DNA from: Phaeodactylum tricornutum CCAP 1055/1
Taxonomy: Eukaryota; Bacillariophyta; Bacillariophyceae; Surirellales; Neidiaceae
Length of the DNA: 64,000 bases
NCBI RefSeq assembly: GCF_000150955.2
Contig: NC_011681.1
Coordinates: 233,501 to 297,500, forward strand
Reading direction: 5' to 3'
Shown: piece after piece, positions 1 to 37,892 of the stretch
Position numbering within the stretch: the stretch's first letter is position 1
How the letters are laid out: each line of letters opens with the position of its first letter
Notes under the pieces: generated by a model
Seen by the model: only the letters and a program-made list of their open reading frames with translations
Databases searched by the model: none
Told to the model about the DNA's origin: nothing
Program-made: the position numbers and the translations under genes

Positions 1-1890
1 AAGTTGTTCATACTCTTGCTGCCGATACTCATCGAATGGGTTTGGAGGAAAAACATAGGCCGAACCTTCGTCTGCATAGTATGAGGAATCTGCTTGCCAT
101 CCACCTCGAGGCAAAGTTTTCTTCTGGTCAAATGACTCGCTTTCCAATTCTCGGCTCGCTTGTTCTAGCTCACGTCTTTGGGGTACGGCTGCCAACTCTG
201 ATGGAATGGCGTACTTTGGTGTGAAAGTAAGTTTTCCTCGACTCATAGCTGCAGACGAGGCACTAGCCGAGCTCATCCCCATGACTTCCTGAATGGATGA
301 TCCCAATCTGTTCTTACCAGAGGCATACAACCGCGCGTCCCAGCCATCAAATCCGGTGTCGGCAACTTCCATATGTAGCAGGTATGGGCACCGATCCCTT
401 GATGCTAAAATGCGGCTTTCCGGTACGACAATATTCAGGACACGGACGAGTTCGGGCGAACTCGTTGACGTCTCACTTTTGTACAGAGGGGATTTCTTTC
501 CCGTTGGCCACGTGCCTGCTTGAGGGACGAGCGGAAAGTGCACAGAATGCTTCAACATATCAATTGACAGGTCTTCGATTCCAGGCCAGTCGTAAGGACT
601 ACGGTTGTCTTCCACATCCAAGCTCACATCTCCACCTGTCACCATCCGACGTCGTATTCTGCGATTGGTTTCCAGCAGCCTTTCTTTTAAGTATGTGTCT
701 CGTTGAATGGTGGGAACCATGCGAAGGTCTAAGGATATTGTTGTTAAACGGTCAATGAAGTGCATAGTATCTCCGAAATGACTACACCTTCGCAGGCTTA
801 GACTGGACGGTAATCGCGAAGCAGTGTGTTCACCTTCGGCGGGAGCGGTTTCAGGAGAATGCTGATGTTGTCCAAGAGGTTCATGATACTGCGATGGTTT
901 ATGTAGATGTTGGTCCATTGTGTATCCGTAGGCTGTCGCTTGCTCGGCGTCCTGTAGGAGGTCAAAAGCTTCCCTTTTTTCCGTTCCGATTTTGGCTAGA
1001 ACGGCTGCTTTGTCAGCTGGTAGCACTATAATTAATCGTCGCCCAGTTTGCTGCCGGTGCTCAAAAAGAGTTTTCCACGCCCGACCGACCTCGGCCTCTA
1101 GCAACCAACACAGTTCGATTCCCCAACTAGGGTCTTGCAAACATCGATTCAGCATCAGATGTCGTAACTTTTGAATAGGATTGGTTAGGTGCGGTTCAAA
1201 TGCGGGCGGGGATTTCAGCACAGCCGACACCAATTGAGGTAGGTAGTTCTGTACTTGACGCAAACTCTGGGTTGCCTCTTGCGTCTCAGATATTGTCGAA
1301 GCCGACGAACGCGCATGTTCCAAATTTTGGGGGTCTACTGGAAGCTCTGTCTCTCTAGAGTCGTCTATTAAGTTGGTGCCGTTGCCTGAAATAATGAGTC
1401 GAGCATGTTTCTGCCTATCGCCGACCGGATTTTCCGATGTTGTACCGTCGTAGGGCAATTTTGCCTTCTCAAAAGCTCGCAGAATCTCAATGTCGGCATC
1501 CAAAAAGGGGTCCTCCTCGAGGTCATCAAATGCAGCGCATGCTGTTTGGCTCGCGTTTTCCTTGTCGTATTCTACAATCCGTTGCCGATGTGTTTTTTGT
1601 TTTTCCAAAATCGAGTCTATGGCCTGGAGTTTGTGTGACAGTCTCTGGACCAACTCAATGCGCAGCGCGTCCATCACCATGAGTCGTTGACTCCCTGGTG
1701 GGTAAGCCAAAATGCCGCGCAGGCATTGATCGCGCCAGGCTTCTTCGAGTTGGTGACGAGAGGTTGGAGGTGGAGGTGGAGGTGGAGGAGCATAATGCGG
1801 TTGGAAAGGCAATGTCTGAATCTCGGCGACGTCCCGTACCAAGTTCGACAGAAAAAGCCAGCGCATTAAAAAGGTGGATACGTCGAACAT
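1..1890 (-). CDS. PI4KB: phosphatidylinositol 4-kinase, class III beta-like (partial, N-terminal part)
   Basis: An uninterrupted 630-codon frame runs from an ATG at 1890 off the left edge. It would phosphorylate phosphatidylinositol at the 4-position on Golgi-type membranes. The match is by recalled family pattern. Near residue 200, YLPQLVSAV followed by PIQKLRHLMLNRC and GIELCWLLEAEV resembles the helical accessory domain (in PI4KB, YLPQLLNMY, YIVHRC, SLQCALLLGAY). Further on, FIDRLTTISLDLRMVPT precedes LVRVLNIVVPESRILASRD and CPYLLHMEV, the strands that open the PI4KB kinase region. The catalytic loop and DFG lie outside the window. A run of prolines, residues 37-43, comes from a (CCA/CCT)n stretch near 1770-1790. 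There is no ATG in this frame upstream before a stop at 1931-1933, but a 5' exon beyond cannot be excluded. Divergent from the glutamate dehydrogenase gene. Confidence 0.8.
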   Translation of the reverse strand, partial: MFDVSTFLMRWLFLSNLVRDVAEIQTLPFQPHYAPPPPPPPPTSRHQLEEAWRDQCLRGILAYPPGSQRLMVMDALRIELVQRLSHKLQAIDSILEKQKTHRQRIVEYDKENASQTACAAFDDLEEDPFLDADIEILRAFEKAKLPYDGTTSENPVGDRQKHARLIISGNGTNLIDDSRETELPVDPQNLEHARSSASTISETQEATQSLRQVQNYLPQLVSAVLKSPPAFEPHLTNPIQKLRHLMLNRCLQDPSWGIELCWLLEAEVGRAWKTLFEHRQQTGRRLIIVLPADKAAVLAKIGTEKREAFDLLQDAEQATAYGYTMDQHLHKPSQYHEPLGQHQHSPETAPAEGEHTASRLPSSLSLRRCSHFGDTMHFIDRLTTISLDLRMVPTIQRDTYLKERLLETNRRIRRRMVTGGDVSLDVEDNRSPYDWPGIEDLSIDMLKHSVHFPLVPQAGTWPTGKKSPLYKSETSTSSPELVRVLNIVVPESRILASRDRCPYLLHMEVADTGFDGWDARLYASGKNRLGSSIQEVMGMSSASASSAAMSRGKLTFTPKYAIPSELAAVPQRRELEQASRELESESFDQKKTLPRGGWQADSSYYADEGSAYVFPPNPFDEYRQQEYEQL

Positions 1891-2502
1891 GATAGAAAAT
1901 AACTGTGTAGCAGAATACCTTCCCTGCAGAACTTAAGCTCTTCAACGACGGTACGCAGGGGAAAATCCGTTGGCGGGCTGGAGAATCTTTCAATCGGAAA
2001 TAGCAATTAGTATGAAGCTCCTATGAGAGCTTCGGCGGCTGTCCTCGAAATTGTGTGCGCTCTATTAATAAAAAAGCCTGTAATTGTTTTTTCTCATGGT
2101 AAGGGAGGGCGCGGGTAGGGACAGAACTGGAAGTTGTGATAGACACGGGTGTACCTCATGGTTGGTCTCTTCCTGTTTACAGTTAATTTTCACTGTCAGT
2201 GTGCGTCTTGATGGTGGTAAACCTGTACAGCTTCCACGTGTATTCTCGTTCGGGTTTGACTGTACGTTCACGGGATTTATCACATTTTGGCTCTGTTCTC
2301 TCAACCGTGATTTGATCGTATTCAAGACTTCCAGGTGTTGCATTTTTGTGTTGGCGGTTCGCGAATAATCCAGAAAATCGCAACCCCCTATCCGAACATA
2401 AAAAAGCGAACCTCCGACCAGAATTTCAGAAAAGAGACCTGCTGGTGTTCCTTCCATTGTTTACGTGCCACTCTCCCGAGGAACGACGAACCTGCCGGAG
2501 GG
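1891..2502. promoter_or_regulatory. shared intergenic region between divergent PI4K and GDH genes
   Basis: About 610 bp separate the two start codons, so the stretch must hold both promoters and 5' leaders. Several short ACAGT/ACTGT words occur here (2180-2200 and 2255-2264) and recur in other intergenic gaps of the window. I see no TATA box at a convincing position. Reading frames here are short and overlap each other, with no recognisable protein. Confidence 0.45.
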
Positions 2503-4207
2503 ATGTCAGCACGATCCGAAGCCCCAACCATCTTCAAGTCCAGAAACGGCGATCCAACACAAAAAATTGATCTTACAATACAGAAAAAGAATCTTTTTAC
2601 TGTTAGGACGACTCGCACATTTCTTCTAAAGCAAAAGAGCGTTGTCCTTTTCGCAATCGTCTTGTTTCTTATCCAAGACCATACCATTGTGCAATCAAGA
2701 AGAGCTTTGATACCCGCTTCAAAGCGCTCTTCCTTCGAGGTCGCCAACGTCCTATCGGAAGCTACGGAGGCTACTACGACGAGCAACAACATGTCCACAC
2801 GCGGTGATCTAGACTTTCTCGATGATTTGCGCCGAAAGTATCCGCACCAACCAACGTTTTTGCAGGCAGTTGAAGAAATGGCCCTCGCCCTCAGCGATCT
2901 TTTTGATGGACCGGACGGAGATTTTTACCAAAGGGCCTTTCTGGCCATGGCGGAGCCCGAGCGTATCATTGCCTTTCGCGTTTCTTGGATGGATGATAAC
3001 GGAAAGATTCGTTTTAACCGTGGATGGCGGGTCCAGTTTAGCAGGTATGTGACAACAAGATAGTGGTTTTACATGCTTCGTGAACATCTCTCATTTCTAT
3101 TCTTGTAGCGTTCTCGGTCCCTTCAAGGGCGGTCTTCGCTTCCACCCAACTGTCGATGAAGGAGTCTTGAAGTTTCTTGGCTTCGAGCAGATCTTCAAAA
3201 ACGCTTTGACCGGATTGCCGTTGGGTGGAGGTAAGGGCGGGTCCGACTTTGACCCCAAGGGCAAATCGGACGGGGAAGTTCGTCGTTTTTGCGAAGCCTT
3301 CATGTCCGAGCTTTGCCGTTACTTGCATCCATCCACAGATGTTCCTGCTGGTGATATTGGAGTTGGTGGCCGCGAAATTGGCTACATGTATGGACAGTAT
3401 AAGCGTATAACAAATCGCCACGGTGTCGGTGTCCTAACGGGTAAGTCCATGAACTTTGGTGGCAGCGAAATTCGCCCCGAGGCGACCGGATATGGTCTTA
3501 TTTACATGACAAAGATTGCCGTCCAAAGGAAACTGAACCGAAACTTGACGGACATGCGCTGTGCAATTTCCGGTTCGGGAAATGTTGCACAGTTTGCGGC
3601 GAAGAAGTTGCTCGAGTTTGGTGCCAAGGTCATGACTGTGAGTGACTCCAACGGTGTGATCGTTTTCGAGAGCGGAATGACGGCCACAGACTGGGATGCT
3701 GTTTCCGACTGCAAAAATAAGCACCGCGGACGTCTTTCGTCCATCCAGGACAAAGTCAGCGGGCAGTATTACGACGGCGAAAGTCCTTGGAGTTTAGACA
3801 TCAAGTACGACTTGGCCTTGCCTTGTGCTACACAAAATGAAATTGACGAGAAGTCGGCCAGGCAACTTGTAAAAAACGGAGTGTTGGGAGTGTTGGAGGG
3901 CGCAAACCTACCGACCGACTTGGAGGCGCAGGCCGTGTTCCGTAAGGCCGACGGTGTTATTTATGTCCCGGGAAAGGCATCCAATGCTGGAGGTGTTGGT
4001 GTCAGTGGTTTGGAGATGAGTCAGAACGCACAGCGGCTCACGTGGAAATCAGAAAAGGTGGACGAAAAACTGCATGGCATGATGGACGAGATTTACAGTA
4101 TGATGGAAGAAGCCGAACTAAGTGGAGGAACTTTGGAACAGGGAGCAAACCGTGCTGGATTTCTGAAGGTTGCCACGGCTATGAGAGAGCTAGGTTGGGT
4201 GTATTGA
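2503..4207 (+). CDS. GDH: NADP-type glutamate dehydrogenase
   Basis: Reversible amination of 2-oxoglutarate to glutamate. Two exons: 2503-3044 and 3109-4207. The 64-nt intron starts GTATGT and ends TTGTAG, and splicing restores VQFSSVLGPFKGGLRFHP, the conserved core of the hexameric family. Downstream are LGGGKGGSDFDPKGKS (substrate lysines), TDVPAGDIGVGGREIGY with the catalytic Asp, and the Rossmann glycine run ISGSGNVAQF. The spliced product is 546 residues, about 95 longer than bacterial homologues. The extra N-terminus contains a hydrophobic stretch (VVLFAIVLFLIQ, about residues 48-59), which suggests a membrane or organelle targeting signal. The start at 2503 is the first sensible ATG; an ATG at 2791 (MSTRGDLDFL) would give a bare cytosolic enzyme. 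Identity is certain, targeting is not. Confidence 0.93.
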
Positions 4208-4510
4208 AGAGGGAATTTGATGGAGTAGCTACGTCTATTGTAAAATTTCCAACTTAATTGTCTCTTTGTCTGTGGATTTATTGTAGACTTGACAGTAAAT
4301 ATCGTAGTATCACACTACCTATGTCTTGTTATGCGGCAGAGTGACACTCACCGTGATTTCAGGTATATCTCAGGAGAGACACTTTTAATTACATTAACGG
4401 CAATGTAACTGTAAGGTAGTCAGTCAGCAGACAAACAAAATCATAAAACTATTGAAGAACACAAAACGACGATGGAGATCACAGTTGAGGACAACGATGA
4501 ACTACGAAGA
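4208..4510. other. intergenic, 3' of GDH
   Basis: AT-rich stretch with a TTGACAGTAAAT word near 4290 and ACTGT/GTCAGT words at 4405-4425. No gene seen. Confidence 0.4.
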
Positions 4511-4723
4511 TTATGAGTCTATATTGTACTCTTGGATATTCGTAGGGACTGTGGGGCTGTGATTCGTTGTGTGTGGGACGGAAGCGACTTGTCTTTTAGC
4601 AGTAGGCGATTGAACTTCTGGTGAGACGTTGTCCTTACCAGGAGTTTGATCAACAAAAACAACGTTGGACGGATCATTCGGAAAATCTGCTGAAGCCATG
4701 ACAGTCGTATCATCATCTGCCAT
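4511..4723 (-). CDS. possible small acidic protein, unknown
   Basis: A 70-codon frame with an ATG start. The product begins MADDDTTVMASADFPNDPS and is rich in Asp, Pro, Ser and Thr, without hydrophobic segments. I do not recognise it. It is divergent from the GNAT locus, with a CACAGTCA/GGCAGTGA pair of words between them. It could be chance or a terminal exon. Confidence 0.25.
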   Translation of the reverse strand: MADDDTTVMASADFPNDPSNVVFVDQTPGKDNVSPEVQSPTAKRQVASVPHTTNHSPTVPTNIQEYNIDS

Positions 4724-4749
4724 CCCAAGTCACAGTCAATTGGCAGTGA

Positions 4750-5859
4750 AACGTTACGATCGAACATGATGGCGCCGGAACAGCTAGCGTTGGAAAAATT
4801 CAACACGGTGTGGAAAGTGTCTGTCTCAATGCGTCGAGTAGCAGCGATCAGTCTTTGTGGACGTTCCAATCGGCAGTACTGCCGAATGTCGACAAGGATA
4901 CTGTGCGATTGTTTGGCTTTCAAACCAAGTGGAAGGGCATCCCATATTGTTTGACAACTTTTTACGTTGGGTACTCAACGTGGGATGGTAGGTTCTTATG
5001 TATTGATGTCCTTGCGGATCCTATTGATGTCGTCTTTTCAAAAACGAAAGAGCATGTCAATCTCTCTGGAGGAATAGTAGCGGAGCAAGTCTGCCTCCTT
5101 CTTTTGACACGAATCGCCGTTGCGCTAGATTGCGGTCGTCTGACATGGCAGCATTACTATCTCGAAACAGGGAAGGGTTGTGTTTTACCAAAACCCGAAT
5201 TCATGGAAGGATGGCTCACTCTACATTGGGAGGAAGCCGAAATGAGTGCGTAAGTCGGATTACTTACAGAAGTACAAGGGTCAGACACTGTGGAAGAATG
5301 CATTCGTTTGTCTTTACGTGATCAAGATAACGATAAGTATCGACTTCGGTTAGCGGCAATAGATGACAGTGAGCGCATAGCTCGACTGGTTGGGGGCTTG
5401 GCAATTTTTGAAAAGGAACCGGATGCGGTGCACGTATCTATTAATCACTATAAAGTGGATGGATTCGGCTCCCTACCTCTGTTTTATTGCCTGCTTTTAG
5501 ACTGCACAGAAGGAGGTCGCGAGTCTCAAAGCTGTGGAATGGCCTTCTTTTATGTCGGTTGTACAGTCAAAGGTGGAAGGTTCATGTACCTGGAAGATCT
5601 ATTCATCGAAGAATTTCACCGAGGCAAAGGTGCCGGAAGCGCCGCCATGAAGGCTCTAGCATCAGCAGCGCTCGCAATGAAATGCCAGCGACTTGTCTGG
5701 CAAGCGTTGGACTGGAACACACCAGCTTTGGGGTTCTATAAAAAAATCGGCGCAAAAATACAAAGTGGCTTGCTGACTTCTCGTTACGCCAATCGGCAAT
5801 TATATGATTTGGCCAAGCTCGAACTCGCACTTATTGAAGATGATCGGACCGCAAATTGA
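4750..5859 (+). pseudogene. tandem GNAT N-acetyltransferase locus with an in-frame TAA
   Basis: Two GNAT-like segments share one frame. The second (from about 5272) is a good SSAT-like fold: an RLAAIDDSERIARLV start, FFYVGCTVKGGRFMYLEDLF, then the acetyl-CoA loop RGKGAGSAAMKAL and LDWNTPALGFYKKIGAK. The first (4810-5245) repeats the pattern in worn form (TTFYVGYSTWDGRFLCIDVL, later LTWQHYYLETGKG) and lacks the RGxGxG/A loop. A TAA at 5251-5253 separates them. It lies in a 24-nt GT-AG stretch (5246-5269) whose removal would keep the frame, but that is shorter than any diatom intron I know of. No ATG opens the first segment in frame; an ATG pair at 4766 is in another frame. Read this as a decaying gene, a mis-modelled multi-exon gene, or an unusual intron. 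The acetylated substrate (polyamine or amino acid) is unknown. Confidence 0.55.
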
Positions 5860-6149
5860 GGAAGGACGGGCTATATTTGAAAGATGCTCGAGCTGCTATT
5901 TAGAATCAGCAGAGGCAGGGAGATGCTTTGATATGTTCTGTCGACCAAGATGTTGTCGTTGCTGACACTGACACCAAACCACTTGGGGGGGAAAATGTTT
6001 CTTTCGTTAGTTCCTACGGTCTTTGCGGTGCACAACGTATTGAAAGATCCTCACACATCCATCTTGTTCACAGTCAGCGCTCCCCGAAAAGCAGTGGCGG
6101 TTGTCCGGAGTGGATACGAATGCTACTAATTTACGCAATAGCTTCGGAA
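5860..6149. other. intergenic between convergent genes
   Basis: Convergent 3' regions of the GNAT locus and MGD1. Nothing recognisable inside. Confidence 0.4.
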
Positions 6150-7764
6150 CTATGATGTCCGTGTCAATTTAGCTCCGGCGTCTCCGAGCTTTTTTTTCTT
6201 CTCGGCAAAAACTGCGTCAGCCAAGTCTTTGGCAATATTTAGCGTAGCCTGTGGCCGCGCGGCGGCTAGCGCAGCATTTCGCATTGCTTCAAGCTTCTCG
6301 GGGGACAGCAGCCACGAGCTCACAGTATTGGCAATCACGGAGGCGTCGCCACTGTACTTTCCAAAACCAGCCTCTTCGACGAACGGAATATTGCCTTCTT
6401 CTTGGCCGGGGCTAGCCAATACGATGGAAAATAGCGTGTCAGTTGCTCAGCTATGTAATCTAGGGCCTCTGAACGGTGATACCAGTACGACGCATACCAT
6501 CGCAGACTTACAGATACGAAAAGAGCATGCAAGGTAGTCCACAGATTGATGCTTCAGCGATTGTTCCGGGGCCGGCTTTGGTCACCAAAGCATCCGAAGC
6601 CTTCATCCATTCGTCCATGTTCTCGACGAAGCCTTGAACGTTGACTCGCACTGTGGTACCCCAGGATTCCTTCTCTAAACTTGCCTTGGCTTCTTGGTTG
6701 TTGCCGCAAACAACAACCATTTGTGTAGTGGTACTGGCTGTGCCTAAAGCAACACCCAGACTTTTCGAAATCTCAACAATTCCTCCCATTCCATCCCCGC
6801 CACCGACGATCAAGACGGTCGGAAGATTTTCGTCCAAACCCAATTGACGGCGAAGCGATTTACGTACCTTTTCTGGCGCCACATGCGCCGACTCGCTGTT
6901 TGCCCAAAACCCTTGTCGGATTGGCAATCCGTATTGCACGATTTGCGAGTCTTGGAGCTGTCGCTTTTTGGCAGCCAGGTACAATGCATCGGACGGAACA
7001 AAGCATTTGTCGACACTACATGAAAGGCGAAAACAAAAATGAGAAACCAAAAAGTCTCCGAAATCTCTGACATCCAAAATGCTGACACTTTCCGAACGAG
7101 AGCCTATCCTCGTAACATACTCTTTGTTGAACCAAGTTGGATGGGCACTCCCGAGATCAGTGACGACGGTACAAAACGGCGTTTTCCGCCCGGTCCGTTC
7201 CCGCGTCGCTCCGTTCGAATCCAGTTCCGCCAATATCCGTAGCGGGATATCTTGGGTAAGAGGATGTACGGACACCACCATATCGGCCTTTTTCCCGGAA
7301 TTCCCCGATGGTCGAGACAAGCAAGTTTTGAAGGGTTCAAAACAAAACAACTCCAGCATGAGTCGATTCAACCAGATACCAAAATCGGTTGCGCCGAAAT
7401 GATAAAAAATATCCCAAGTGATCGGATATTTGGCCGCGAATTTATAGAGTTCAATATAGGAATCGTACGGCCAAAATGGTCCGTACTCTGTATAAATATC
7501 GACAATATCGCACTGTATTCTGCCGGGATGCAGTGTATCAAAGGCGTCTCGTAAGGCGTTGGCGGACGCCCTGTGACCCCCGCCAGTGTCGGACATGAGT
7601 ATCTGCACCGTACAAACTTCATCGGTTTCGATAGCGGCAGTAGTAGTACGGATGTAAGCGGCCACATCCAACCTCGTTGACGTGGGTCGCAAATTAGGTG
7701 AGAACGCTGCCGACCACTCGGCGGTGGACGACAACCAAAAACAAAGGAAAAACAGTTTGCACAT
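6150..7764 (-). CDS. MGD1: monogalactosyldiacylglycerol synthase (GT28)
   Basis: Transfers galactose from UDP-Gal to diacylglycerol to make MGDG, the main thylakoid lipid. Three exons, 7764-7121, 7015-6512 and 6411-6150, give 469 residues. The introns are 105 nt (7016-7120, GTATGT..TGTAG) and 100 nt (6412-6511, GTAAGT..GCTAG). Splicing restores TWFNKDVDKCFVPSD and CMLFSYLPGQEEGNIPFVEE, both typical of MGD enzymes. The N-terminal donor glycine loop is LMSDTGGGHRASA, and the C-terminal nucleotide site includes VTKAGPGTIAEA. The start at 7764 gives a signal peptide (MCKLFFLCFWLSSTAEWSA) ending at SAAFSP, an ASAFAP-like motif with Phe at +1, as expected for plastid import. The frame remains open to an ATG at 8079, which would bury the signal peptide, so I prefer 7764. 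The 105-nt intron has no stop in frame. Confidence 0.93.
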
Positions 7765-8186
7765 GACAACGAGTGTACAGGCGACAGCCACTTTCGATGC
7801 GGCGATTGCAGAGTTTTGCGTACGGACCCGCTCTACCTTGTTGGCGTTTTGGACGATTCGAAAGTCCAATCCACCAATGAGCCTGGCGCGTCCTAAGGAA
7901 ATCCGCAAGAGGGGTGATTGCACTTCATCGTCCCGAAGCTGGAGATCTCCAATTCTTGACGCCTTTGGTCTGTCCATGAGCACGGTTGTTGAATTGGAGA
8001 GATTTTCTTCGAGTTTACCATTTAGCCGTCGATGTGCTCCGGACTTGCGAACGTAGCTCAAGAGACAGTCGCAGGACATAGTCCACGGATCCTATACCAT
8101 ATTCGTCCTCGGCACACAAACAAACAACAGCACGAGTCGGCAAACACGCGGCTCGAACCAAAGGAAACGGACTTCCAAACTCGAAA
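7765..8186. promoter_or_regulatory. bidirectional promoter region MGD1 / ER thioredoxin-like gene
   Basis: About 420 bp separate the preferred starts of two divergent genes. The MGD1 frame stays open through much of it (to 8079), so it is either leader or an N-terminal extension. No TATA-like box is obvious. Confidence 0.4.
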
Positions 8187-9966: not shown

Positions 9967-12900
9967 ATGGAAGGAAGAAAATCACGCTCTTTGTCATGGA
10001 CTCTTCCTTTATGGTACGCCTTCTTCGGAGCATGCCATGAATTTGCCCATCTATTGACTGCAGTTATTTTGGGCTTAGGACGCGACGTTTGGGTTGAGGG
10101 AATAACCACTGTTCTGGGTCGAGCGCTAATCGAAAGACACTGTGTCCTGCCGGGGCTGGAAGACTCCAATGCTAGTGATTTCAATGTGGGGGTGGTACGC
10201 CATATCGGTTGGTTCTTCAGCGTGCTTTTGGCTTTCGGCGTTGCTCGGACGGCAATTCCGACGAGCAAAGAAGTTCGATTCGCGTCATTCGTAACGGCTT
10301 TAGAGGCTTTGTCAACAGACCTCTTCAGCTTAAATGTTCTGCCGATTTTGACAAAGATAAATTCTTCAGGCTCGATTTCCTCTGTCTTGTTTTGTGGTAA
10401 CTTTGGAATAATCCTTCTCCATCAGGCTTGGTTGTCCGATAATGGCAAATCGGCGATGGACATTTTGGAACGGATGATAAAAGTGACAATGATGAGAGGC
10501 GCTCAGTCAGGTGGCGTGGTCACCTTTCAACCGCTGAAAAATTCGCTTCGAGGTATGCGTAGTCGTGTTGTGAACAAGAAACGGACGGATTTGAGTGTTT
10601 TGGTGCGTAAGGAAGTGGAACGAGATGCGATACGTTCCGTTTCGCGACCCTTTCCAGAATCATTCGTGCAAAGCTTTTCGGGTCACACACGATTTGCCAC
10701 CTCAAGTAAAGCGAGTTTGGATGGCACACATCCTCACCTGTGGACCCCAGCAAGCAATCGTCGGCTTTATAATTTTTCAGTCCGACGTTCTGGTCCACAC
10801 CAATACATGCCTGAGACCACAAAAGTTGAAAACTACATAACTCACAACGGTGATTTTGATTTTTACATTGTCAATGGACAAACTTTCGACTTGGAAGTTA
10901 TTCAAAAATGGCTTCCGGTTGTCACCGGCTTTCCAATGCCGTCTTCCGTCGACAGCTGCGCGGTTGCCGGAGTAATTGATTTACTTCGAACTCAAGGCCG
11001 CTTCGGCCTCAGCGCCCGCTGCGCAATCTGCTTTGGGCTATCAACAAGCAAGATGGAAGAGGAGCTATTCTCTTTTCCGACCTATGAGCAGTTTGAACAA
11101 ATTGGACTTGTGTTTGAAGAAGCCATGGATGTAATGCTCCAGACGACAACATTTTCCACTTTGTGTGACGATCCGAATATGCGTCATTCATTCAGTCTTT
11201 GTGTGCTCAGTAAGCTAAAACCGCACAGGGTATCACTCTTGCAGCCGATCCAACGCTACATATGCGATGAAGAAGAGGGTGGCGCAAATCTGCTTTCTTT
11301 TTGCTTGTGTACAATCAATGCTTTCTTTGACAATGATCTCCTTATGGCAACCACGACGTTTTTGAAGAACGCGAAAGGATCGTTTGGTTTGTGTGTCACT
11401 TCATCAATAGACGCTCATCGGCAAATTTGTTTAGCTGCTCGCGGGCAAAAGGTGAGAAATGTCCTGTTGTTTTAAGTCGTCTTTACCACCAATAGCGCTC
11501 ATCACAGTGTTTTTCATTGACCATGTACAGATGTCCATTGCATTTTACCCGTCTAAAGGCCTCGTTTGCTACGGATCGGAGCAGGCGTCAGTCAAAGCAG
11601 GTATGAATACAGCATTCCCAGGTGCTGTAGACGAATTAGGAACATCTCGTGGTGACATTGACGCCGACGTTCTGCGGCTAGATTTGGACGATCTGGGCGG
11701 CGAAATCATGTGCCTCGATTGGGGTGGCAAAGCTTTTCGGAGTCCTGCAGTTTCTCTACCACATAGGCACTTGATTGAACACGTGCTCATGAAAGGGTCT
11801 GTCAAGGTAGTATTGGTACAGGAGTCTAAGACAACCATGCAACGCGCTCAACTGTTCCATCGTATGACACGCCTATCACGAAATCCACTCATCAAGATGT
11901 TAGCTGAAGAATCCAAAGACCTCGTCCTTTCCGACATAAACGATACTCCACGTGCATGCCAAGCGATTCAAGACGACTGGGACTCAAATCAAACTGGGAA
12001 AAGCATGAATCGCCTAACAGCTTACAATTTGTCGTGTTGTTTGCGTAAACGACTTGAAATGCATTTAAATGGACCGGTCCACAATCGAGCAGTCGACATT
12101 TTGTTAACTGGATGCGAAGTTTCTCTTTGGTTAGCTGAGCAGTTTGCGACTGATCTTCAAAAGGCCTTTCCCAGGCTCCGAACTAAGGCCATCAGCAGCA
12201 ATAAGCTCCTGGGACTGTATGGGCAGGAACTTGCGGTGCCGTCAATTGGGTTCCCGTATTCTCCCCGTACATACGACCTAAACGATGCCATTGTTGTGAT
12301 TGTGAGCCACAGCGGTGGAACATTTGCTCCGTTAGCTTGCTCGAATCTGCTTCAAAGCACAACCAAAAATATTTTTGTCGTTACGTCCGAATGGGATACG
12401 CAGATTGGCAAGCAGCTCCGTACTATGGACGGCCTTCTGGACGCTAGCTGGGACCATCTTTTCAGTAGTCGAATATTTTCGACGGAGGTGGGAATGCGCC
12501 CAGCAGAGCCCTGCTCTGTCACAGTGGCGGCTACCCAACAGCTCCTCACAAATTTGTTTCAGTATATCTCTGCAGTTATCCTCAGTGATGAAAGATTCCG
12601 TCAAGTAGTTGCTGCGACGATTTCTGAGCAGGACCTGAGGATTTTAGAGAAGTGCAATAGAGAGAACATTGCTGCTCTTTCCGACATTGTTGGAGTCAAC
12701 GAGTGCGGTTTTGCAATCAAAAAGCAAATTTCGGCAGAGATTGACCTTAGGAAAGCTGGCAATCTTTGGGCAGAGCATGTCCTCGAAAACGCGAAAGCTT
12801 ACATTATGACTTTTGTATACATTTTTGTGACCGTTGTTTCAGGCTACCATCTCATCTACGCAATTTCTTATGCATGTGGTCTAGACGATACAAGCAATTT

Positions 12901-14386
12901 TGTCCACCTCATTCGTGTTCTTGATGCTGCAATCTATTTCTGGTTACCACAGATCAATGTCGCTCTCTTGCGATTGTTTCAGAGTCGTGAACTGCTTCAC
13001 CGGATGGGTTGTCGCACTGTCGCCATTGCTGATATACCTTGGGTTGCGCAATCGGCCGAAGCATTCCTGAGTAAAATTTTTGCGTGCTCCTACAGCATTG
13101 CAGGAATCAACGTGCTCAGCGGCAATCCCAATGATCACTTTGTCCATCGTCATACGCACAGAGTTGTCCGCGGGGCACTGGTCCTCTGTGGAAGGCCCGA
13201 TGGTCGGCTTTCTGCATTGGCAACGGCGGAAGCCACTGTGTGCTTATCTGTCAATCAAGCAAGTTCTATTCAAAGTTTAGGCGGTACATGTGAAAGTATT
13301 ACAGTGGGTCACAATCCCTTTAAGCTGCCCTTGACAAAATTTGGAATCTTTCTCAAAAGCAATCGCCCGCAGTTTCTCTGCGAACGGATGCTGGTTGAGA
13401 AAGATGCTGAAGGAAAAAGGAATGAAGATGATTTGGCGCCTAGCCCGGTGGATCAAAGCTTACAATGTGAGGGCGTAAAGAACTTTACACAGGATGGGCA
13501 AGAACGCCATTCAGAGCTGAATATGGCACTCAGTTCCAGTGTACACTTACTCCCGCAGAAAACGCGGTCCGCATCAGCTTTGCTGGGAGCATACACGAAC
13601 ATTGCGGAACAAGCTGATAGAAATCGTGGATGCAATGGATCATCTGAACATAGCTCCATAGACGAAGTACTTTATTCTGCCATTCAAGAGCGATCTTGGT
13701 CAAATGAGGGCAAGAAGCTTTTTGAAGCCCTAGATGTGAACAGCGATGGCCTGCTCAGCGAGGATGAAGTCATTGATGGACTTTACAGGCTTGAAACTCT
13801 TTTTCTAGAAGACCACACTCGGGCAATGTTTAAAGTTGCAGACGGCAATTCTAGTGGGCATGTGGATTTTGACGAGTTTCTAAAGCTGCTTGACCTAGCC
13901 GATATAGATGGTGATATAAAGGTTCCCTCCGCGAGTCGAGACGAGCGCGGGAACATTCGGATAGAGCCCAGTCACGAGGAGTACTTTGGAGAAACATTGC
14001 GAAAATTCAATGCAGGCAAGACGCAAAACAATGTCGAATTTCGTTTGGCTCATAGTCAGCATTTCAGCCAAGAGTTGTACGAGAGCCGCATTGCATCGCT
14101 GCAAAGGTTTGTCTCAATGACTGTGATTTTCCATCAGATGGGCAGGCGCGTCGAACAATTCTTTGAAACTATTTCATTTGGGTTGCTAGGATACCGTATG
14201 GACAGGACGCACAGTATAATGAGAATTGCAACCACTGCCTCCCCAATCAGTGGAGCCGACGTACGCCACCGCATGAATCAATTACAGCTCCAAAGTAAGA
14301 TTCATTATTCAATTCATGTAATTTCAATGGCTTACTTGCGATATCGTGCTCGCAAACAATCATGCTATCCTGAACCCGACAAGTGA
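9967..14386 (+). CDS. membrane amidotransferase-like / SIS / EF-hand fusion protein
   Basis: Two exons (9967-11451, 11531-14386; 79-nt phase-0 intron) give 1446 residues. Residues 15-100 hold hydrophobic segments and HEFAH (24-28), a HExxH pattern in a helix as in M50 proteases. A class II glutamine amidotransferase-like domain follows: LFCGNFGIIL with Cys143, MMRGAQSGGVV, GHTRFATSS (239-247) and THNGDFDFY (292-300). These parallel CGIVGY, RGYDSAG, HTRWATHG and VHNGIIENY of GFAT. An SIS domain (about 685-770) has TGCEVSLWLAEQF and VSHSGGTFAPLA. Then come a hydrophobic segment (about 918-942), a second SIS-like segment, and two EF-hand loops (DVNSDGLLSEDE near 1230, DGNSSGHVDFDE near 1266). 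Family knowledge: GFAT makes glucosamine-6-phosphate. Inference: a Ca2+-responsive, membrane-anchored relative. Because Cys143 is internal, normal Ntn chemistry would need proteolytic release. Function unknown. Confidence 0.8.
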
Positions 14387-14547: not shown

Positions 14548-17500
14548 TTAGGACAACTCGAAGCCGGCTCCGGATTCAATAGCGTAGAGCAAACGTTGCT
14601 TCAGTACCTTCTCGCTACTGTACGTAGGTAACTTCAGCACATTAAAGCACGTCGAGGCTGAAGGTAGCTTATCTCCGTCTCGTAGAATACCCACCCGCTG
14701 GATTGTAAAAGGAGGATTTAAGCTCCCAAATCCAAGGGGTGGCGGACGCTCGCAAGACGTTACGAAACGCAATAGATCAGCTTGCTGCTTACTGCTCATT
14801 GAAGACAAGACACTCCAAAAGCGGTTGACTGTTCTGTCTATTCCAGTGAATCCACCAGCGTAGCGTGAATGTGCCCGCAAATCTTCGACATCAAGTTTTC
14901 CATCCGATACACCACTGATGAGAACTTGAAGCTCGGGCTCGTTAAAAAGACGCAGCCAAGACCGATCAATGACTTCCCAGAGTCCTCGCGTGAATGCCTC
15001 TGATTGATCTTTGACACGATCGACAACATAGTGCTTTGCAACAAGTTCAACATAGCGCTGCTTGTTGACGTTTGTAACTTCCACGTTTGCTCCGTCTGGA
15101 ATTAAGAGGACATCTTTGTTCCCACCAAATTGATCATGCATTATGCTGAAAGTGAGGCACAAATCTGTTGTATCACCCTCATAGGCCTTTAAAAACATCA
15201 AATTGTTGTAAAGCTGCGGGTCGACGGTACTCAGGTCTGCCAACATGTGTAGGTAGTTATAGTCACCTCGAAGAAAACTCAGAAAGAAATGAGCAAACCG
15301 TGGGTTGATTGTGATGCCTTCAAAGAGAGCCTTACCCAATATTCGGCCCAGGAATTCAAACAAGACAATATGGTCTGGTGTTCCATGGGCAGCACCGGAC
15401 GAGGGGTTTGGGTATAAGCAGTTTCCGGCGCCATCGGTGACCGAAAAAAGTGCGTAGTTGGGGTTGAAAGCAATTGCACACAGATCTGTCCAGAATTCTT
15501 TGAATAAGCCACCGGCATCAATGCCTGGTTCTCGAGCCCCGGCTTCGTTAAAGTATTGTACCGATAATCGCTGCCGCATGTTTCGGCCCAGATGATTCAT
15601 GGTTGCGAGTCCATCTTCAAGAATTCGACCTCGTGTTATTCGGACAGGGACCCCTTTCTTGAGAGGATTCGGATTGAACGGATTTGAGGAATTCTAAAAC
15701 AGTATATTGAAGGCCCTTACCGTTGTCAGACATTTCTGCTTGCAAGGTAAAGAGATATTCACAGTCAGTAACTTACCTCTCCTTGAATTTCTACTCGATT
15801 CGTAGTCACGATTCGTTCAAAGAGTTTAAGTCTTCGCTTAAAAGAAACAAGAAACGGACACATACGCAACACGGGTGTCGAGAGCAACGCTACATATTCG
15901 GCATGGCAGTTGCATTTCGAGAGATCCTTTTCCAACAGGTTTGGCAGCAGCCATAGCTTGGGTACACAGATTGGCCTCCGACTTGAACGATCATACAAAT
16001 CACGCATGGCCCTTGACGAGGCCGATATCAGAGCTACTCCAAAGTAATTAGAATGAACAGAAAGACTTGTCGAATCGATGCAGCAAGCCCGATACAAGAG
16101 CTTTTTGAGAAGCTGAATGACACGTCTTAGTTGATGTTTGGGCAAAGGGCGGTCCATGTCGTGGATTTCAACGTCGTCTGTAATAATCAAGGTGTGTGAC
16201 AACACTACAGCAAACATAAACAGCAACGCTGCCCCGTCTAAGTCGCTAATTCCACTAGATATCCCAGTAAGGCCAGTCTGCATGTCCAAACACCGTATGA
16301 AAGATTTGCCCTCATCCATCTCGACAATGCTGTGAATTTGGGATGCAATCCGACGGTCTGACTGCATGATTCCCCACGCACATTGCACAAATGGCGTAGA
16401 AAAGCACAGGGCGTTCAAAATAATAACAACGAATGGTTCCGCTCTTATGCAAGCCTTGGGGAATTCGCCCTTGGCGGATTCCCTGTTCTGACTAAGAAGC
16501 ATATCATCGTTCCCAGCGCCACCCCATCGTGCCACGACAACAGAGAAGCAGCGACACAAGCAAAACAAAAATGTCACTGTATAGTCGGATCGTGGGACAA
16601 TGTTAGTTGAGAAAATGGTCCCGATATCGCTACAATCACCTTCCACCCCTTCCGCTAGGTTGCGCGAAACCGTAGACTGATTCCTTAAAGACGACGGTTT
16701 CAAATTCTTGGCCGCTCGCTTTTTGGCGTCCTCACCGACCAGCAGGCTTGACATGCCCTTTGTTAGCTTCCGCGCCCATTTTGAAGAGTTCCAAAAGCTC
16801 TTATTGCGGTCCACACGTGCTTCTTTGGCTGCCAAACTTGCTGCCGACGAGCTTCCCACCTCCAGCATGTCCTTCTCGTGTTTTAAATCCTTATCGCTCT
16901 TGGTCGACAAGATGTTTTCTGTACCAAGTACTTGCGGATCCAGGGCGATTTGAAAGATGCGACGGACAAAGGAATCCACCATACATAGCCCTGCACTGGT
17001 CTTGAATGACCTTCGACAAGACAATTGGGATCGTATGACCATTTACTCCGTCAACCCAGACAACGGCCGAGTCACGGGAGGAGAATGTAGCTAAAGGAAT
17101 GGCTTGTACCAAAACTGTAATGAGATTAAAAAACACCACGGCAGCTCCAAAGTCCAGCTTAAGACTGTCAGTACCATTCAGCGTAGGACATAGAAGGCCT
17201 AGCTGGACCACATTGGCTAAGAAGCATTGTGTCGGCGTGGCAGGACATACCGTCATGGGCACATCGTCGAACGGAAACAAATTTTCGACGCCGTCATTTT
17301 GAAGCAAGCCGTCGCCTTTATCGCCAAAAAGTCGCAAGGCGGACACGAATGGACAACCTTTTGTCCCCGACGATGTGACCCAGTATGCCAAGAGCTCATT
17401 TGATACTTTCCACGTCAAGAGCGGAATAGTATAAATCTCGCGAACGAGACGAATCATCAAAAAGTCACCCCTTGCATCGTGATCACTCGCTTGTTCCACT

Positions 17501-33800: not shown

Positions 33801-33977
33801 CTGCACAACATAAAGTACATAAATAAAAACTGAAATTGACCTTTAATAGCTTGTTGATGGTATTTCTGGCATGTGCCGAATTTATTGAGGCCTGGACATC
33901 ACGGTACACTGTCATATCGTTGAGACGTCTTTAGGACAGTTGTGTTTTTTGGATTTGTCGAGAAACGATCGAAACCA

Positions 33978-36900
33978 ATGCCCCAAAATTGGTTGCTTTC
34001 AAGGCCTCGGTCCAAACATTCGTTCCCCGCAACTTATCCTGTTCGATCTCGTCGCGCTAATCACCACATGACATCCTCCTTGCGCAATCCGGATTCGGCG
34101 GTCGCCCGTGCCGCCATGGCGCGGCGTCGGCAGCGAATTCCGCACCACGGGGCCGTTGCGACATCGTCCGGTACTACCGATCAGCCCCGCGATCCAACTG
34201 CTAGACGAAACTCGGCCGTTGCGGAGACTTCTCGCCAGGTTTACGATCACGAACGGCTACTAGAAAGAAGTTTTGAAGTCGCAGACGAAGCGGCGTCCGT
34301 GTTGGCGTCGGTACGTCAACGTCGTCAGCGGGATGGCTCCACACGAATGAATATCGAGCCCGAGTCGGACTCCAACCTTTCGACGGCATCACACGTACCA
34401 CAACAACACCAAGGGCGGACACCGACAGTCAAGTTTGCAACGCAAAGCTCGTCTACGAGAACGAGCGTCCGTAATGTGCCATCCAGCATTACTCCACTAC
34501 TGTCTGCCGCCGTCACCGTTTCGAGTGCCCCTCCGCCCACATCCTCACGAACGCCCTCAACGGTGACTAAAGTTTCCCCCGTACCTTTGCCTCCGCCACC
34601 GTCAACCTCCGTCGACGGAACGCGCCCGGAACGTGCCGTGTCTTCCCACGGACCCATGTCCCGTACCGGATCCGCGCCATTGTCCACTTCGTCCGCCAAA
34701 GCAACCTCGGCGGTACCTCGCACGTTTGTTGCTTCGCGCAGCACGTCTCCCATGCCTCAGCAAACTTCCGACAGTGAGGAGGATAACGATCAAGTCTCGG
34801 GAGAAACGAAGCTGCCGCCCACCGTGGAAGAGCTGGAACCCGTCCTAGTTGAAGATGATGACGACGAAGGCCACAAAGGTTGGACCGCTAACGATAGTCA
34901 TGCGGCCGCAACGACCCATTTACACTACGGTGACCGTATTCGTATACTTTGCCACACCGAAACACCCTGGAGTATTGTACGGGAAAGCTCCCCCGAAAGC
35001 AAGGTAACAAAGGCGATAGCAGTCCCCGTTACGTCAGCCACCATGGCCGCCTTTACGGTACAGCGACCCCGCCCCACAGCACAATATGATCCTTGCCTAC
35101 GCTATGGAGATGTCGTATCTTTGCACCATACCGACGGATCAATTATGAGTGTCCATCGTCAGCAATCCGAGAAAGGCCATAACATTGCTTACGTGCCCGC
35201 TTGGATCGATCCGGTGGAAACCGACGACGAACGTATGGAAGTTTGGAAACTTTTGCGGGCGGTCCGGAACGGTCTCGTGCGTGTCGGACACTCTGCGATA
35301 GAAAAGGTCACACCACGGTCTGGTCGGACGGCTCCAATAAATTCGGGTGACGCCATTCTCTTTCGGCACGAGAAAACCGGCGGGATTTTACGGTTGGACG
35401 TGTCCGGTCACTTGGAAGTAGCCACGGATTCATATGTTCCCAGCAACAGTAATATCCGCCAACGTCGAACTTTGCTGACGCGATTGCAAACGCACGATAT
35501 CTTAGAAATATCCAAGCACGAAACTTTTCACGTGATTACCGGAACCGTTCCACCGACACCTCTGTGGACTAACGGTCCGGCAGATACGCAACGTTCATTC
35601 TCCAACGGCACTCATATCCTGGATGCCCAACGACACGCTTCTACACAAGTAGAGGAAGCACTGTTTGTTGATGTTGATAAGAAACGCAAGATTGAGCTGG
35701 CAGACCACATCGGAATATTGCAAGCGAATCGGTCGAAACAGATGGACACCCCTTTGGGACAAGAAATGGTTTTGATTGACGAGCTACTAGGTTCCTTCGT
35801 GGGATTAGAAGGAAATTCAATCCGCGTTCATGGGGCAAAATCCCTAGACGACGACAGTTTTCGCTTCGAAGTTGGTACATGTACGAATCTGGACGAAGGC
35901 TTACGGTCCATGGTGGAGAGTTTATTGCCTCTATCGACGGCATTTGTTCGCGTAAATCACTTTGTAGTTAGCACGCTTCCACGATACGAAATGGGGCTCG
36001 TCATGCACGCTTTCTGCGAAGCGCTGGACGAGTTGTTGCAAAACTACGTTGCTTTGACAGCAACCTTGGAACGCGAATATCGAAGTCTCATAGACTATTC
36101 GTTTGGGATCTCAAAATTACAGACACACATTTTGTCTGCACTACATACAATGTCGGTGTTACACCATGCCGTAGAGACTGTTCGTCACAGCAAGGGCGGT
36201 GCTCTGATAAATTCGCTTCAAGAATATAAAGACAATCGTTGTGACGGTGATCCAGCCGCCGAGTCTATGATGCATAACCTTGTGGAACGGGCAAGCATAC
36301 CATATATGAACATGCTTCTGCAATGGCTCAACAACGGTATCCTTGACGATCCGTACAGCGAGTTCATGGTAATGTGGGACAAAAGCAAGCTATGGAATGA
36401 GCAGTACGCTGTCGTGGAAGCGCATGTTTTGAGCAGACACTTTGGATCACGACAATTGATCGAAAGAACGGTCTCTACGGGACAATATTGGAACGCTGTT
36501 CGCCGATGCCAGGGTCACGTTCAAGAATCTGCTGTGCTCGTGGATACTCTTCCTTTGCGATATAGCGACCCCATTGTTTCTTTTGCTTCCAGCGTCCAGC
36601 TGCAGTATCACAAAGCCTCCCGTGTTCTTGTTAGTCTACTGCTGAACGAATACGATCTGCTTGGCTCTTTGCGTCTTATGAAACGATACTTTCTGCTCGA
36701 TCATGGTGACTTCTTCGTGCACTTTCTTGACGTCGCAGAACGGGAATTGCGTAAATCCCTTTCGAGTGTATCACCTGGAAGGATACAGCATTGGCTGAAA
36801 ATGTCGATCCAGCTTTCGGAGAGTCACACGGAGGATCAAGCAGCTAGCCCCTTCTTTCAAACACGAGGTAATCGATCTCTGAATGGAAACTCGATACGCT

Positions 36901-37892
36901 GTAATTTCGCCCCGGAAAGTCTTGCCGATCAATTAGACCAGCTGCACGCCGCCACAGGAGGTATCGATACGCACGAACCCAATACACCTCAACGACATGC
37001 GTATGGGGCATCACTAGACGAAGGGCTGACGGGTTTGGACGCATTCCTTATCGAGTTGAGCTTTGTTCCATTCCCTGTCTCTGTGGTTCTTTCGCGTCGT
37101 GCGTTGACCAGCTATCAGCTCCTCTTTCGCCATTTGTTTCTCACGAAGCACGCCGAACGTAGACTGGTAGGAATATGGAAAGATCATCAAACAATGAAAG
37201 AACTGCAACAGATTCGTGGGTCTATGGGACCTGCTTTTCTTTTGAGACAACGAATGTTACATTTTTTGCAAAATTTGATGTACTATATGATGTTTGAAGT
37301 TATCGAGCCGAACTGGTCCGAATTGGAAAATGAGATTGATTCACTCAAACAGCAACGGGAGTACACAGTTGACGATATGTTGCAGGTTCATTCTGAGTTT
37401 CTCCAGTCAACAATCCAAGCATGCCTACTGACCAGTCGCGAGTTAATACGAGCCTTGACGAGACTTTTGAAAACGTGTCTGCTTTTTAGCGATCAAATGG
37501 GTCACTTCATTAGAGCGACCCAGATTAATGAAGACCGTGACGCTGTTGCGACAGAGAAGCAAAAAGTAGTAGAAAGGAGCCTTAACGGCAGAGATCGCGT
37601 TGGAGTTTCAATTTCTGAGAACAGACTCCGTCACACTCTTGAAGAAGCGCGTCGGGAACGTGCCGAGCGAGTGAATCGTCAAACCCTTCGTGTGAAAAGA
37701 GAAGTGGCGAATGAGTCGTATAGATGGATGATTGTCCGCTTCGAAGAGGTTTTCTCTGAGCACTTGAAAGAGTTCATGGTCCGTCTATCGTCAGCAGATG
37801 ATTCATATCCAACCAATGCACAACTAGCAAATTTGTGCGTACGTCTTGATTACAATGGTTACGTCTCGAAATCAATTGTCCGGTCTCCCTAA
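33978..37892 (+). CDS. GCP2: gamma-tubulin complex component 2 (GCP2/Spc97 family)
   Basis: Core subunit of the gamma-tubulin small complex that nucleates microtubules. One exon, 1304 residues from the ATG at 33978. The first ~330 residues are low-complexity (Ser/Thr/Pro, poly-Pro PLPPPPSTS, acidic VEDDDDE). Residues about 330-510 contain three beta-like YGDxxxLxH repeats (HYGDRIRILCHTE, RYGDVVSLHHTDG, NSGDAILFRHEKTG). The gamma-tubulin-complex fold begins at QEMVLIDELLGSFVGLEG. GRIP1 motifs include RYEMGLVMHAFCEAL and the insert EFMVMWDKS; GRIP2 includes LRLMKRYFLLDHGDFFVHFLD and LQNLMYYMMFEVIEPNW. It ends RLDYNGYVSKS. The C-terminal basic coil (RRERAERVNRQTLRVKRE) is an insertion within GRIP2. 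No introns. Confidence 0.93.
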   Translation: MPQNWLLSRPRSKHSFPATYPVRSRRANHHMTSSLRNPDSAVARAAMARRRQRIPHHGAVATSSGTTDQPRDPTARRNSAVAETSRQVYDHERLLERSFEVADEAASVLASVRQRRQRDGSTRMNIEPESDSNLSTASHVPQQHQGRTPTVKFATQSSSTRTSVRNVPSSITPLLSAAVTVSSAPPPTSSRTPSTVTKVSPVPLPPPPSTSVDGTRPERAVSSHGPMSRTGSAPLSTSSAKATSAVPRTFVASRSTSPMPQQTSDSEEDNDQVSGETKLPPTVEELEPVLVEDDDDEGHKGWTANDSHAAATTHLHYGDRIRILCHTETPWSIVRESSPESKVTKAIAVPVTSATMAAFTVQRPRPTAQYDPCLRYGDVVSLHHTDGSIMSVHRQQSEKGHNIAYVPAWIDPVETDDERMEVWKLLRAVRNGLVRVGHSAIEKVTPRSGRTAPINSGDAILFRHEKTGGILRLDVSGHLEVATDSYVPSNSNIRQRRTLLTRLQTHDILEISKHETFHVITGTVPPTPLWTNGPADTQRSFSNGTHILDAQRHASTQVEEALFVDVDKKRKIELADHIGILQANRSKQMDTPLGQEMVLIDELLGSFVGLEGNSIRVHGAKSLDDDSFRFEVGTCTNLDEGLRSMVESLLPLSTAFVRVNHFVVSTLPRYEMGLVMHAFCEALDELLQNYVALTATLEREYRSLIDYSFGISKLQTHILSALHTMSVLHHAVETVRHSKGGALINSLQEYKDNRCDGDPAAESMMHNLVERASIPYMNMLLQWLNNGILDDPYSEFMVMWDKSKLWNEQYAVVEAHVLSRHFGSRQLIERTVSTGQYWNAVRRCQGHVQESAVLVDTLPLRYSDPIVSFASSVQLQYHKASRVLVSLLLNEYDLLGSLRLMKRYFLLDHGDFFVHFLDVAERELRKSLSSVSPGRIQHWLKMSIQLSESHTEDQAASPFFQTRGNRSLNGNSIRCNFAPESLADQLDQLHAATGGIDTHEPNTPQRHAYGASLDEGLTGLDAFLIELSFVPFPVSVVLSRRALTSYQLLFRHLFLTKHAERRLVGIWKDHQTMKELQQIRGSMGPAFLLRQRMLHFLQNLMYYMMFEVIEPNWSELENEIDSLKQQREYTVDDMLQVHSEFLQSTIQACLLTSRELIRALTRLLKTCLLFSDQMGHFIRATQINEDRDAVATEKQKVVERSLNGRDRVGVSISENRLRHTLEEARRERAERVNRQTLRVKREVANESYRWMIVRFEEVFSEHLKEFMVRLSSADDSYPTNAQLANLCVRLDYNGYVSKSIVRSP

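Follow-up and report, generated by a model that had tools for sequence, protein, structure and literature searches.

The 64,000-nucleotide stretch of the Phaeodactylum tricornutum CCAP 1055/1 genome analysed here (contig NC_011681.1, positions 233,501 to 297,500; hereafter the window) contains, at window positions 9967-14386, a two-exon gene with a product of 1446 amino acids. Comparison with its relatives makes it probable that this product is a membrane-bound, divergent glutamine amidotransferase of the GFAT (GlmS) type, made as a capped precursor from which a front domain (the cap) would be removed before Cys143. Relatives were collected in a first protein search (278 matches at E <= 1e-3, best 120 listed) and a profile search (339 matches, best 120 listed), and 137 different proteins pooled from both listings form the "algal-type" set; a search of bacterial proteins gave 510 matches, the best 120 being listed. 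Counts given below for either set refer to these listed matches, and alignment A4 comprises 38 rows of the algal type. The features of the gene, in window coordinates, are:

9967..11451, plus strand: exon 1, encoding residues 1-495, with the front membrane domain and the larger part of the glutaminase
9967..10392, plus strand: M50-like cap domain, residues 1-142 (model helices and profile comparison)
10036..10050, plus strand: HEFAH (24-28), an HExxH motif kept in 96 of 101 algal-type proteins
10198..10212, plus strand: RHIGW (78-82), which falls on the AGPxxN region of M50 proteases in the profile alignment
10318..10320, plus strand: Asp118, candidate third metal ligand (invariant in A4)
10393..10395, plus strand: Cys143, probable equivalent of the GFAT/GlmS N-terminal nucleophile (structural register, Met-Cys free forms, conservation)
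10396..11451, plus strand: glutaminase domain, first part, with Arg177 (10495), Arg242 (10690), His255 (10729), Asn294-Gly295 (10846) and Asp329 (10951), all invariant in A4
11452..11530, plus strand: intron, 79 nt, phase 0, GT...AG (GTGAGA...ACAG); relatives align unbroken over the junction
11531..14386, plus strand: exon 2, residues 496-1446 and stop (remainder of the glutaminase, then SIS1, the membrane hairpin, SIS2 interrupted by the EF-hands, and the C-tail)
12110..12322, plus strand: SIS1 phosphosugar-binding motifs GCEVS (689) and VSHSGGT (753) (motif conservation)
12785..12979, plus strand: hydrophobic hairpin, residues 914-978, between SIS1 and SIS2 (hydrophobic stretch at the same place in a cap-less relative, L012)
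13031..13390, plus strand: SIS2, first part, from DIPWVAQSAEAFLSK (fold match only, no sequence match to GlmS SIS2)
13733..13876, plus strand: EF-hand pair, loops DVNSDGLLSEDE (1230) and DGNSSGHVDFDE (1266) (Pfam match, conserved loops)
14201..14239, plus strand: C-tail DRTHSIMRIATTA, residues 1386-1398, corresponding to DQPRNLAKSVTVE at the C-terminus of GlmS (the register within the end points of the structure comparison, VIA, set by eye)

That two adjacent genes were read as one is scarcely credible. The gene does contain one intron, but homology is unbroken across the exon junction, which reads AARGQK before and MSIAFYP after the intron where relatives have AARGQTMSVAFYP with no break, and bacteria carry the same fusion in single open frames. 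Among listed relatives whose matches span 98% or more of the query, identity is 42-61%, so the architecture is far from chance. Two separate transcripts, a possibility raised in the initial annotation, are disfavoured because front domain and core occur together in single proteins in 14 of 19 transcriptome-labelled relatives from other species (labels sorted by hand from the two protein listings; 13 of these 14 have HExxH).

A divergent amidotransferase core

Pfam and NCBIfam searches of the protein returned EF-hand models only and left the catalytic parts unmatched. TIGR01135 and PF01380, searched against the P. tricornutum genome, match a canonical GlmS encoded on another contig and other places, never the 9967-14386 gene. 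A single-sequence PDB search gave nothing of value for exon 1 and, for exon 2, 60 listed chains that match in the EF-hand region, as do the best 60 of 797 matches of a search with an alignment profile. It is the AlphaFold models of the two exons that match, in the glutaminase as well as in each SIS domain, human GFAT-1 and E. coli GlmS. As modelled, the protein has a class II, or N-terminal nucleophile (Ntn), glutaminase fold with the Cys in the right place and two SIS domains: model residue 148 aligns with residue 7 of GFAT-1 and residue 5 or 6 of GlmS (VIA), and extrapolating this register five residues back puts Cys143 at the position of the GFAT catalytic Cys. The internal nucleophile-type Cys that the initial annotation had recognised is thus borne out on an amidotransferase fold.

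Cys143, Arg177, Arg242, His255, Asn294, Gly295 and Asp329 are invariant in A4. Every one of the 108 algal-type proteins that reach the site has the Cys motif (the other 29 of the 137 records start downstream), and the glutaminase residues are kept, by motif, in 112 to 119 of the best 120 bacterial relatives. Passages of a study of GFAT-1 assign glutamine hydrolysis to Cys2 with its free alpha-amino group, Asn123, Gly124 and Thr679, and the sugar site to Lys558, Glu561, His577 and Lys676 (PMC7000685). Human Cys2, Arg95, His108, Asn123 and Gly124, as numbered in those passages, have counterparts here (paired by eye; PMC7000685). Human Trp96 and His99 are replaced by Phe and Ser in the P. tricornutum protein. 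Arg26 and Asp123 of E. coli GlmS, likewise paired by eye, also have glutaminase counterparts here.

The sugar site differs. In the C-tail, with the register set by eye, Thr1396 occupies the Thr679 position and Arg1393 that of Lys676, where Arg is found in all 115 algal-type proteins scored (22 of 137 unscored) and where the best 120 bacterial relatives have Lys in 47 and Arg in 67, with 6 unscored. No acidic residue follows the SIS2 SK within six positions in any of 220 pattern-matching proteins (257 tried), the Glu561 place being judged by eye and the SIS2 register not fixed by sequence. Classical isomerase residues thus seem not to be conserved, and, because glutaminase residues are kept while those of the sugar site apparently are not, glutamine hydrolysis is expected of this protein and classical fructose-6-phosphate isomerisation is not.

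The EF-hands score above Pfam cut-offs (PF00036, 35.8 bits; PF13499, 33.5 bits) and have two canonical 12-residue loops. They lie at exon-2 residues 728-788, inside the span 124-895 that aligns with the GlmS isomerase, and are thus, in the model, inserted within the SIS2 fold. An addition at the C-terminus was rejected, since the counterpart of the GlmS C-tail comes after them. SIS domains, a further membrane segment and EF-hands had been read from the sequence as following one another; the parts stand, but the order does not, as the EF-hands interrupt SIS2. In the matching region the EF-hand signal is strong in a pelagophyte and weak, below cut-off, in Effrenium and Pycnococcus, and none of seven bacterial cores or proteins scanned gave an EF-hand match; the pair was therefore probably gained on the algal stem and worn down in some lines.

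The cap domain and the forms without it

In the model, residues 1-119 fold into four helices, three of them long (12-34, 71-94 and 101-119) and one short (46-56); a low-confidence linker leads from there to residue 147. The HExxH of the P. tricornutum protein lies in a membrane helix. Among algal-type proteins, 101, this one included, have 100 or more residues ahead of the Cys, and HExxH is present in 96 of them, even though residues within and around it vary. Compared as profiles, bacterial caps match M50 proteases with 92.5% probability and a score of 53.6 (at most 18.1 in 40 shuffles, 23.1 reversed), and algal-type caps, loci L027 and L034 included, with 77% and a score of 38.8 (shuffles 15.7, reversed 11.2). 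The alignment places HGxGH or HExxH on HELGH, and ALGGxxFN or RHxGW on AGPxxN. Asp118 stands at a fitting place, outside any LDG motif, and its bacterial counterpart is invariant in the 8-row alignment A7.

Single sequences are less telling. PF02163 does not match the P. tricornutum protein; among five caps scanned in Pfam, M50 was the sole match in three, at 12.4, 8.9 and 12.4 bits against a cut-off of 27.2, and the remaining pair matched SprT-like (L027) and EMC6 (L009), likewise under the cut-off. No M50 protease figured among the best 50 rows of the structure comparison (VIA) for exon 1, whose rows cover mainly residues 147-495 and are uninformative on the cap. The front domain is thus M50-like on these comparisons, rather than a called member of M50, and its proteolytic activity is putative. 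The initial annotation had seen a worn M50 protease with an NVLP element: the likeness holds, the domain is not worn in the algal type, and NVLP, at residue 123, was rejected as an M50 motif since it is not conserved. Its suggestion to search each segment with family profiles yielded the EF-hands above cut-off, nothing for the catalytic parts or PF02163, and left the amidotransferase fold to the AlphaFold models.

The cap can also be absent altogether. Among the best 120 bacterial relatives the Cys is residue 2, after the initiator Met, in 30 (free forms) and residue 167-268 in 87 (fused forms), with the start missing in 3 and no intermediates. Similarly, 7 of 32 loci found in bacterial records by a genome scan begin at Met-Cys, with an in-frame stop at most seven codons upstream of the Cys. 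A FastTree phylogeny of 117 listed bacterial proteins shows 8 changes between free and fused, no fewer than 7 of which are forced by starred branches; a smaller IQ-TREE tree requires at least 5 changes for the free label. One starred clade unites two fused (L014, L026) and two free (L015, L022) cyanobacterial forms, and in all four a gene for a multi-receiver hybrid histidine kinase of the HisKA type lies directly upstream. Because fused and free clade mates share the same kind of upstream kinase, the cap differs at one type of locus. Ser/Thr kinase-type genes lie near four other loci, as do GGDEF/PepSY_TM-type genes near four more.

A cap profile found no match in 7 of 7 genomes with free forms and recovered the cap in 2 of 2 fused controls. 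The idea that the cap is the sole membrane anchor was rejected, since the hydrophobic region of the hairpin persists in L012, a protein without the cap (four other cap-less forms are present in alignment A6), and so was an internal start codon at the Cys, since none of 187 fused proteins has a preceding Met. Of the fused bacterial proteins, 47 of 87 have Asn before the Cys, a pairing reminiscent of the Asn-Cys junction in inteins.

Taken together, these comparisons suggest that the cap is not the anchor, has no target other than its own enzyme and has an end that coincides exactly with the enzyme's start. Cys143 is probably the mature N-terminus, because (i) free forms start at Met-Cys, (ii) intermediates are absent, (iii) switches between the forms are repeated and (iv) the cap has no match in the 7 genomes with free forms. 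The proposal that the Cys is freed by proteolysis, already made from the sequence of this gene, hence gains strong, if indirect, support.

Distribution of the family

The fusion is not peculiar to P. tricornutum, as a search for it elsewhere, advised at the outset, makes clear. Among the named sources of algal-type proteins are diatoms, a pelagophyte (P0124), two dinoflagellates, Effrenium (P0129) and Durusdinium (P0131), and the green alga Pycnococcus (P0135). The genome scan added 32 further loci in bacterial records, mostly from cyanobacteria, then from purple sulphur bacteria, with single records from Elusimicrobia, Omnitrophota and, doubtfully, Verrucomicrobia. The family is sparse in bacteria: a member was found at E <= 1e-100 in at least 3 of 386 cyanobacterial genomes, the starting genome included, and at E <= 1e-20 in at least 1 of 288 Verrucomicrobia genomes, namely the starting genome itself. 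These numbers are lower bounds because two candidates per genome were scored in both searches. The Verrucomicrobia locus (L027, contig G003:C420 of a metagenome-assembled genome) may be an algal or other eukaryotic contaminant, since its match is split over several frames, it resembles the algal proteins, it is the sole match at E <= 1e-20 among the 288 genomes of its phylum and it sits on a long branch among algae. It was left out of the bacterial arguments and kept in alignment A6, the algal-type cap profile (with L034), the five-cap Pfam scan and the IQ-TREE tree. A scan of viral contigs gave 5 pattern matches, none confirmed as a relative.

Weaker matches in Omnitrophota and Elusimicrobia are mostly frames of ordinary GlmS length (about 500-720 amino acids); among 18 such loci inspected, 14 open with the CGI-type start of GlmS, one has a late start and the remaining three yielded nothing. 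In the same phyla the core also occurs in very long open frames of about 1900 to 4600 amino acids (L061, L062, L047, L048, L063-L068), several with HGxGH-type caps and with varied Cys motifs. Two proteins from the bacterial search (P0186, P0203), of about 1590 amino acids, combine the core with many precomputed Pfam domains, which we take to be of the WD40 type. A cap-less relative in Oculatella sp. FACHB-28 (P0153) bears the NCBI label 'restriction endonuclease, SacI family', which looks wrong. No description of the family was found in the literature searched, at title and abstract level. We conclude that these GFAT-like amidotransferases form a genuine, conserved family, one not described within the literature searched, and that it represents a widespread algal enzyme family with no Pfam match outside the EF-hands in the members scanned.

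Elsewhere in the window lie genes for an ELFV (glutamate-type) dehydrogenase (3080-4204, plus strand), an MGDG synthase-type glycosyltransferase (6511-8079, minus), a HECT ubiquitin ligase (14551-15600, minus) and a gamma-tubulin complex component (33942-37889, plus), and a Copia-type retrotransposon frame with RVT_2 and SH3_retrovirus (56779-58992, minus). An Rfam search of the window gave no matches.

Proposed maturation and comparison with known systems

A pathway of maturation may be proposed from these data. Residues 1-142 would form an M50-like membrane domain of three long helices on the N-terminal side of the nucleophile. Removal of this cap just before Cys143 would free the alpha-amino group and switch on the glutaminase, and the ammonia released would travel on to the two SIS domains and to an acceptor resembling a phosphosugar. 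Because the hairpin between SIS1 and SIS2 would hold the enzyme at the membrane, the cap would not be needed as an anchor. In algae, where HExxH and Asp are intact, the cut would most likely be made by the cap itself, acting in cis or within a dimer, and Ca2+ bound by the EF-hand pair in SIS2 would probably tune the sugar site or the coupling of domains. In most cyanobacteria, whose caps have HGxGH, the usual chemistry would be impossible for the cap, and either autoprocessing driven by the Cys or another protease would act. Self-cleavage by the cap is thus plausible in algae and in the 8 of 87 bacterial forms with HELGH, but it cannot be a general rule because the other 79 caps lack the catalytic Glu.

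Several points weigh against removal of an M50-like cap. Model confidence is low at residues 124-147, Cys143 included, so that Cys143 itself is unaligned, and only middling for exon 2 (pLDDT 72); comparison of SIS2 with GlmS SIS2 reveals no detectable sequence similarity (2.35%). M50 proteases carry a NxxPxxxLDG motif, and its LDG is absent from residues 1-142; HGxGH, without the catalytic Glu, replaces HExxH in 79 of the 87 fused bacterial caps, the other 8 having HELGH. The residue before the Cys differs between groups, being F, L or Y in most algal-type and N or Y in most cyanobacterial proteins. The changes between free and fused forms are undirected on the tree, so the free state could be the older one, with repeated gains of the cap. 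Lastly, all support for processing is comparative, and no report of cleavage of such a protein was found in the literature searched, at title and abstract level.

The main rival is that the Ntn hydrolase removes its own cap, Cys143 attacking the preceding peptide bond, with the M50-like domain serving as a metal-binding regulator or folding aid and not as a protease. This is possible but doubtful. It would account for the 79 cyanobacterial-type caps that lack the Glu yet keep both His and the Asp, and for the varying residue before the Cys. There is also precedent, as a review describes how class II amidotransferases have a few residues before the Cys that are cleaved autocatalytically (PMC9140057). 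However, the propeptides in that review are a few residues long, without any membrane domain (PMC9140057), and a domain that simply binds metal would have no use for the Glu that 96 of 101 algal-type caps keep despite variable neighbours. It is rather improbable that the capped protein is never cleaved and works as a sensor or scaffold in the membrane, able to bind glutamine, sugar phosphate and Ca2+ but devoid of glutaminase activity, the cap-less cyanobacterial forms being the sole enzymes. That the case for processing is comparative, that isomerase residues apparently are not conserved and that signalling genes adjoin some bacterial loci (hybrid histidine kinase, Ser/Thr kinase and GGDEF/PepSY_TM-type genes at 4 of 32 each, at least one of each kind checked in Pfam) would fit such a role; invariant glutaminase residues in A4, their retention in nearly all of the best 120 bacterial relatives and a Cys143 present in 108 of 108 records would be odd for a site that never works. 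For the glutaminase, then, the sensor with lost catalysis once suggested for this gene is unlikely. A plain membrane-anchored GFAT, making glucosamine-6-phosphate under Ca2+ control, is more improbable still: fold, SIS1 phosphosugar serines and C-tail are kept, but no acidic residue is seen by eye at the Glu561 place (0 of 220 proteins), Lys676 is Arg in every algal-type protein scored and the genome already has its canonical GlmS. The sequence thus does not speak for the hexosamine enzyme of the initial annotation.

Within the capped-precursor reading, it is tempting to speculate, and we do so tentatively, that the protein is a zymogen with its own intramembrane protease: the algal M50-like domain would cut before Cys143 and activate the fused amidotransferase, more than one membrane-protease fold might fill this place, and the state of the membrane or metal and, in algae, Ca2+ might control amino transfer to a sugar acceptor. 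At positions 829-8100 of the Elusimicrobia locus L025, a 2424-residue open frame has no M50-like cap; in its place, a domain of Rce1-like (CAAX protease) type immediately precedes the Cys of CGNVG (Pfam E 2.6e-4, 21.7 bits, cut-off 22.4); it contains EEIFFR, FAFYH and HISWN, presumably the Rce1-type motifs EExxxR, FxxxH and HxxxN. Relatives elsewhere in Elusimicrobia and Omnitrophota show HGxGH, HEWVH or HEWTH instead. The L025 domain, a single sub-threshold case, fits the idea that a protease belongs before the Cys. If the cap cuts itself off, membrane proteolysis would be coupled to metabolism in a new way. Caps gained or lost at least 7 times at one exact residue offer a natural experiment on the maturation of N-terminal nucleophile enzymes, and the family points to a putative amino-sugar or related product in marine algae.

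Compared with known systems, the protein shares with GFAT/GlmS a class II glutaminase placed ahead of a pair of SIS domains, with nucleophile Cys, glutaminase residues, SIS1 phosphate-binding motif and C-tail; it differs in being about twice as long, with an internal Cys behind a membrane cap, a hairpin between the SIS domains, an EF-hand pair inside SIS2, isomerase residues apparently not kept and no Pfam or NCBIfam match outside the EF-hands. Where PurF and other class II precursors have short propeptides, a metalloprotease-like membrane domain is found here. Like the M50 proteases (site-2 protease, SpoIVFB, RseP), the cap has HExxH in the first of three long helices, an AGPxxN-like second motif and a conserved Asp ending the third; unlike them, it lacks NxxPxxxLDG, has Gly in place of Glu in most cyanobacterial forms, stays below the Pfam cut-off and is fused to an enzyme at the likely point of cleavage. 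Finally, the canonical EF-hand pair is like that of CDPK and the SCaMC carriers, but whereas in those proteins it flanks the catalytic domain, here it interrupts one.

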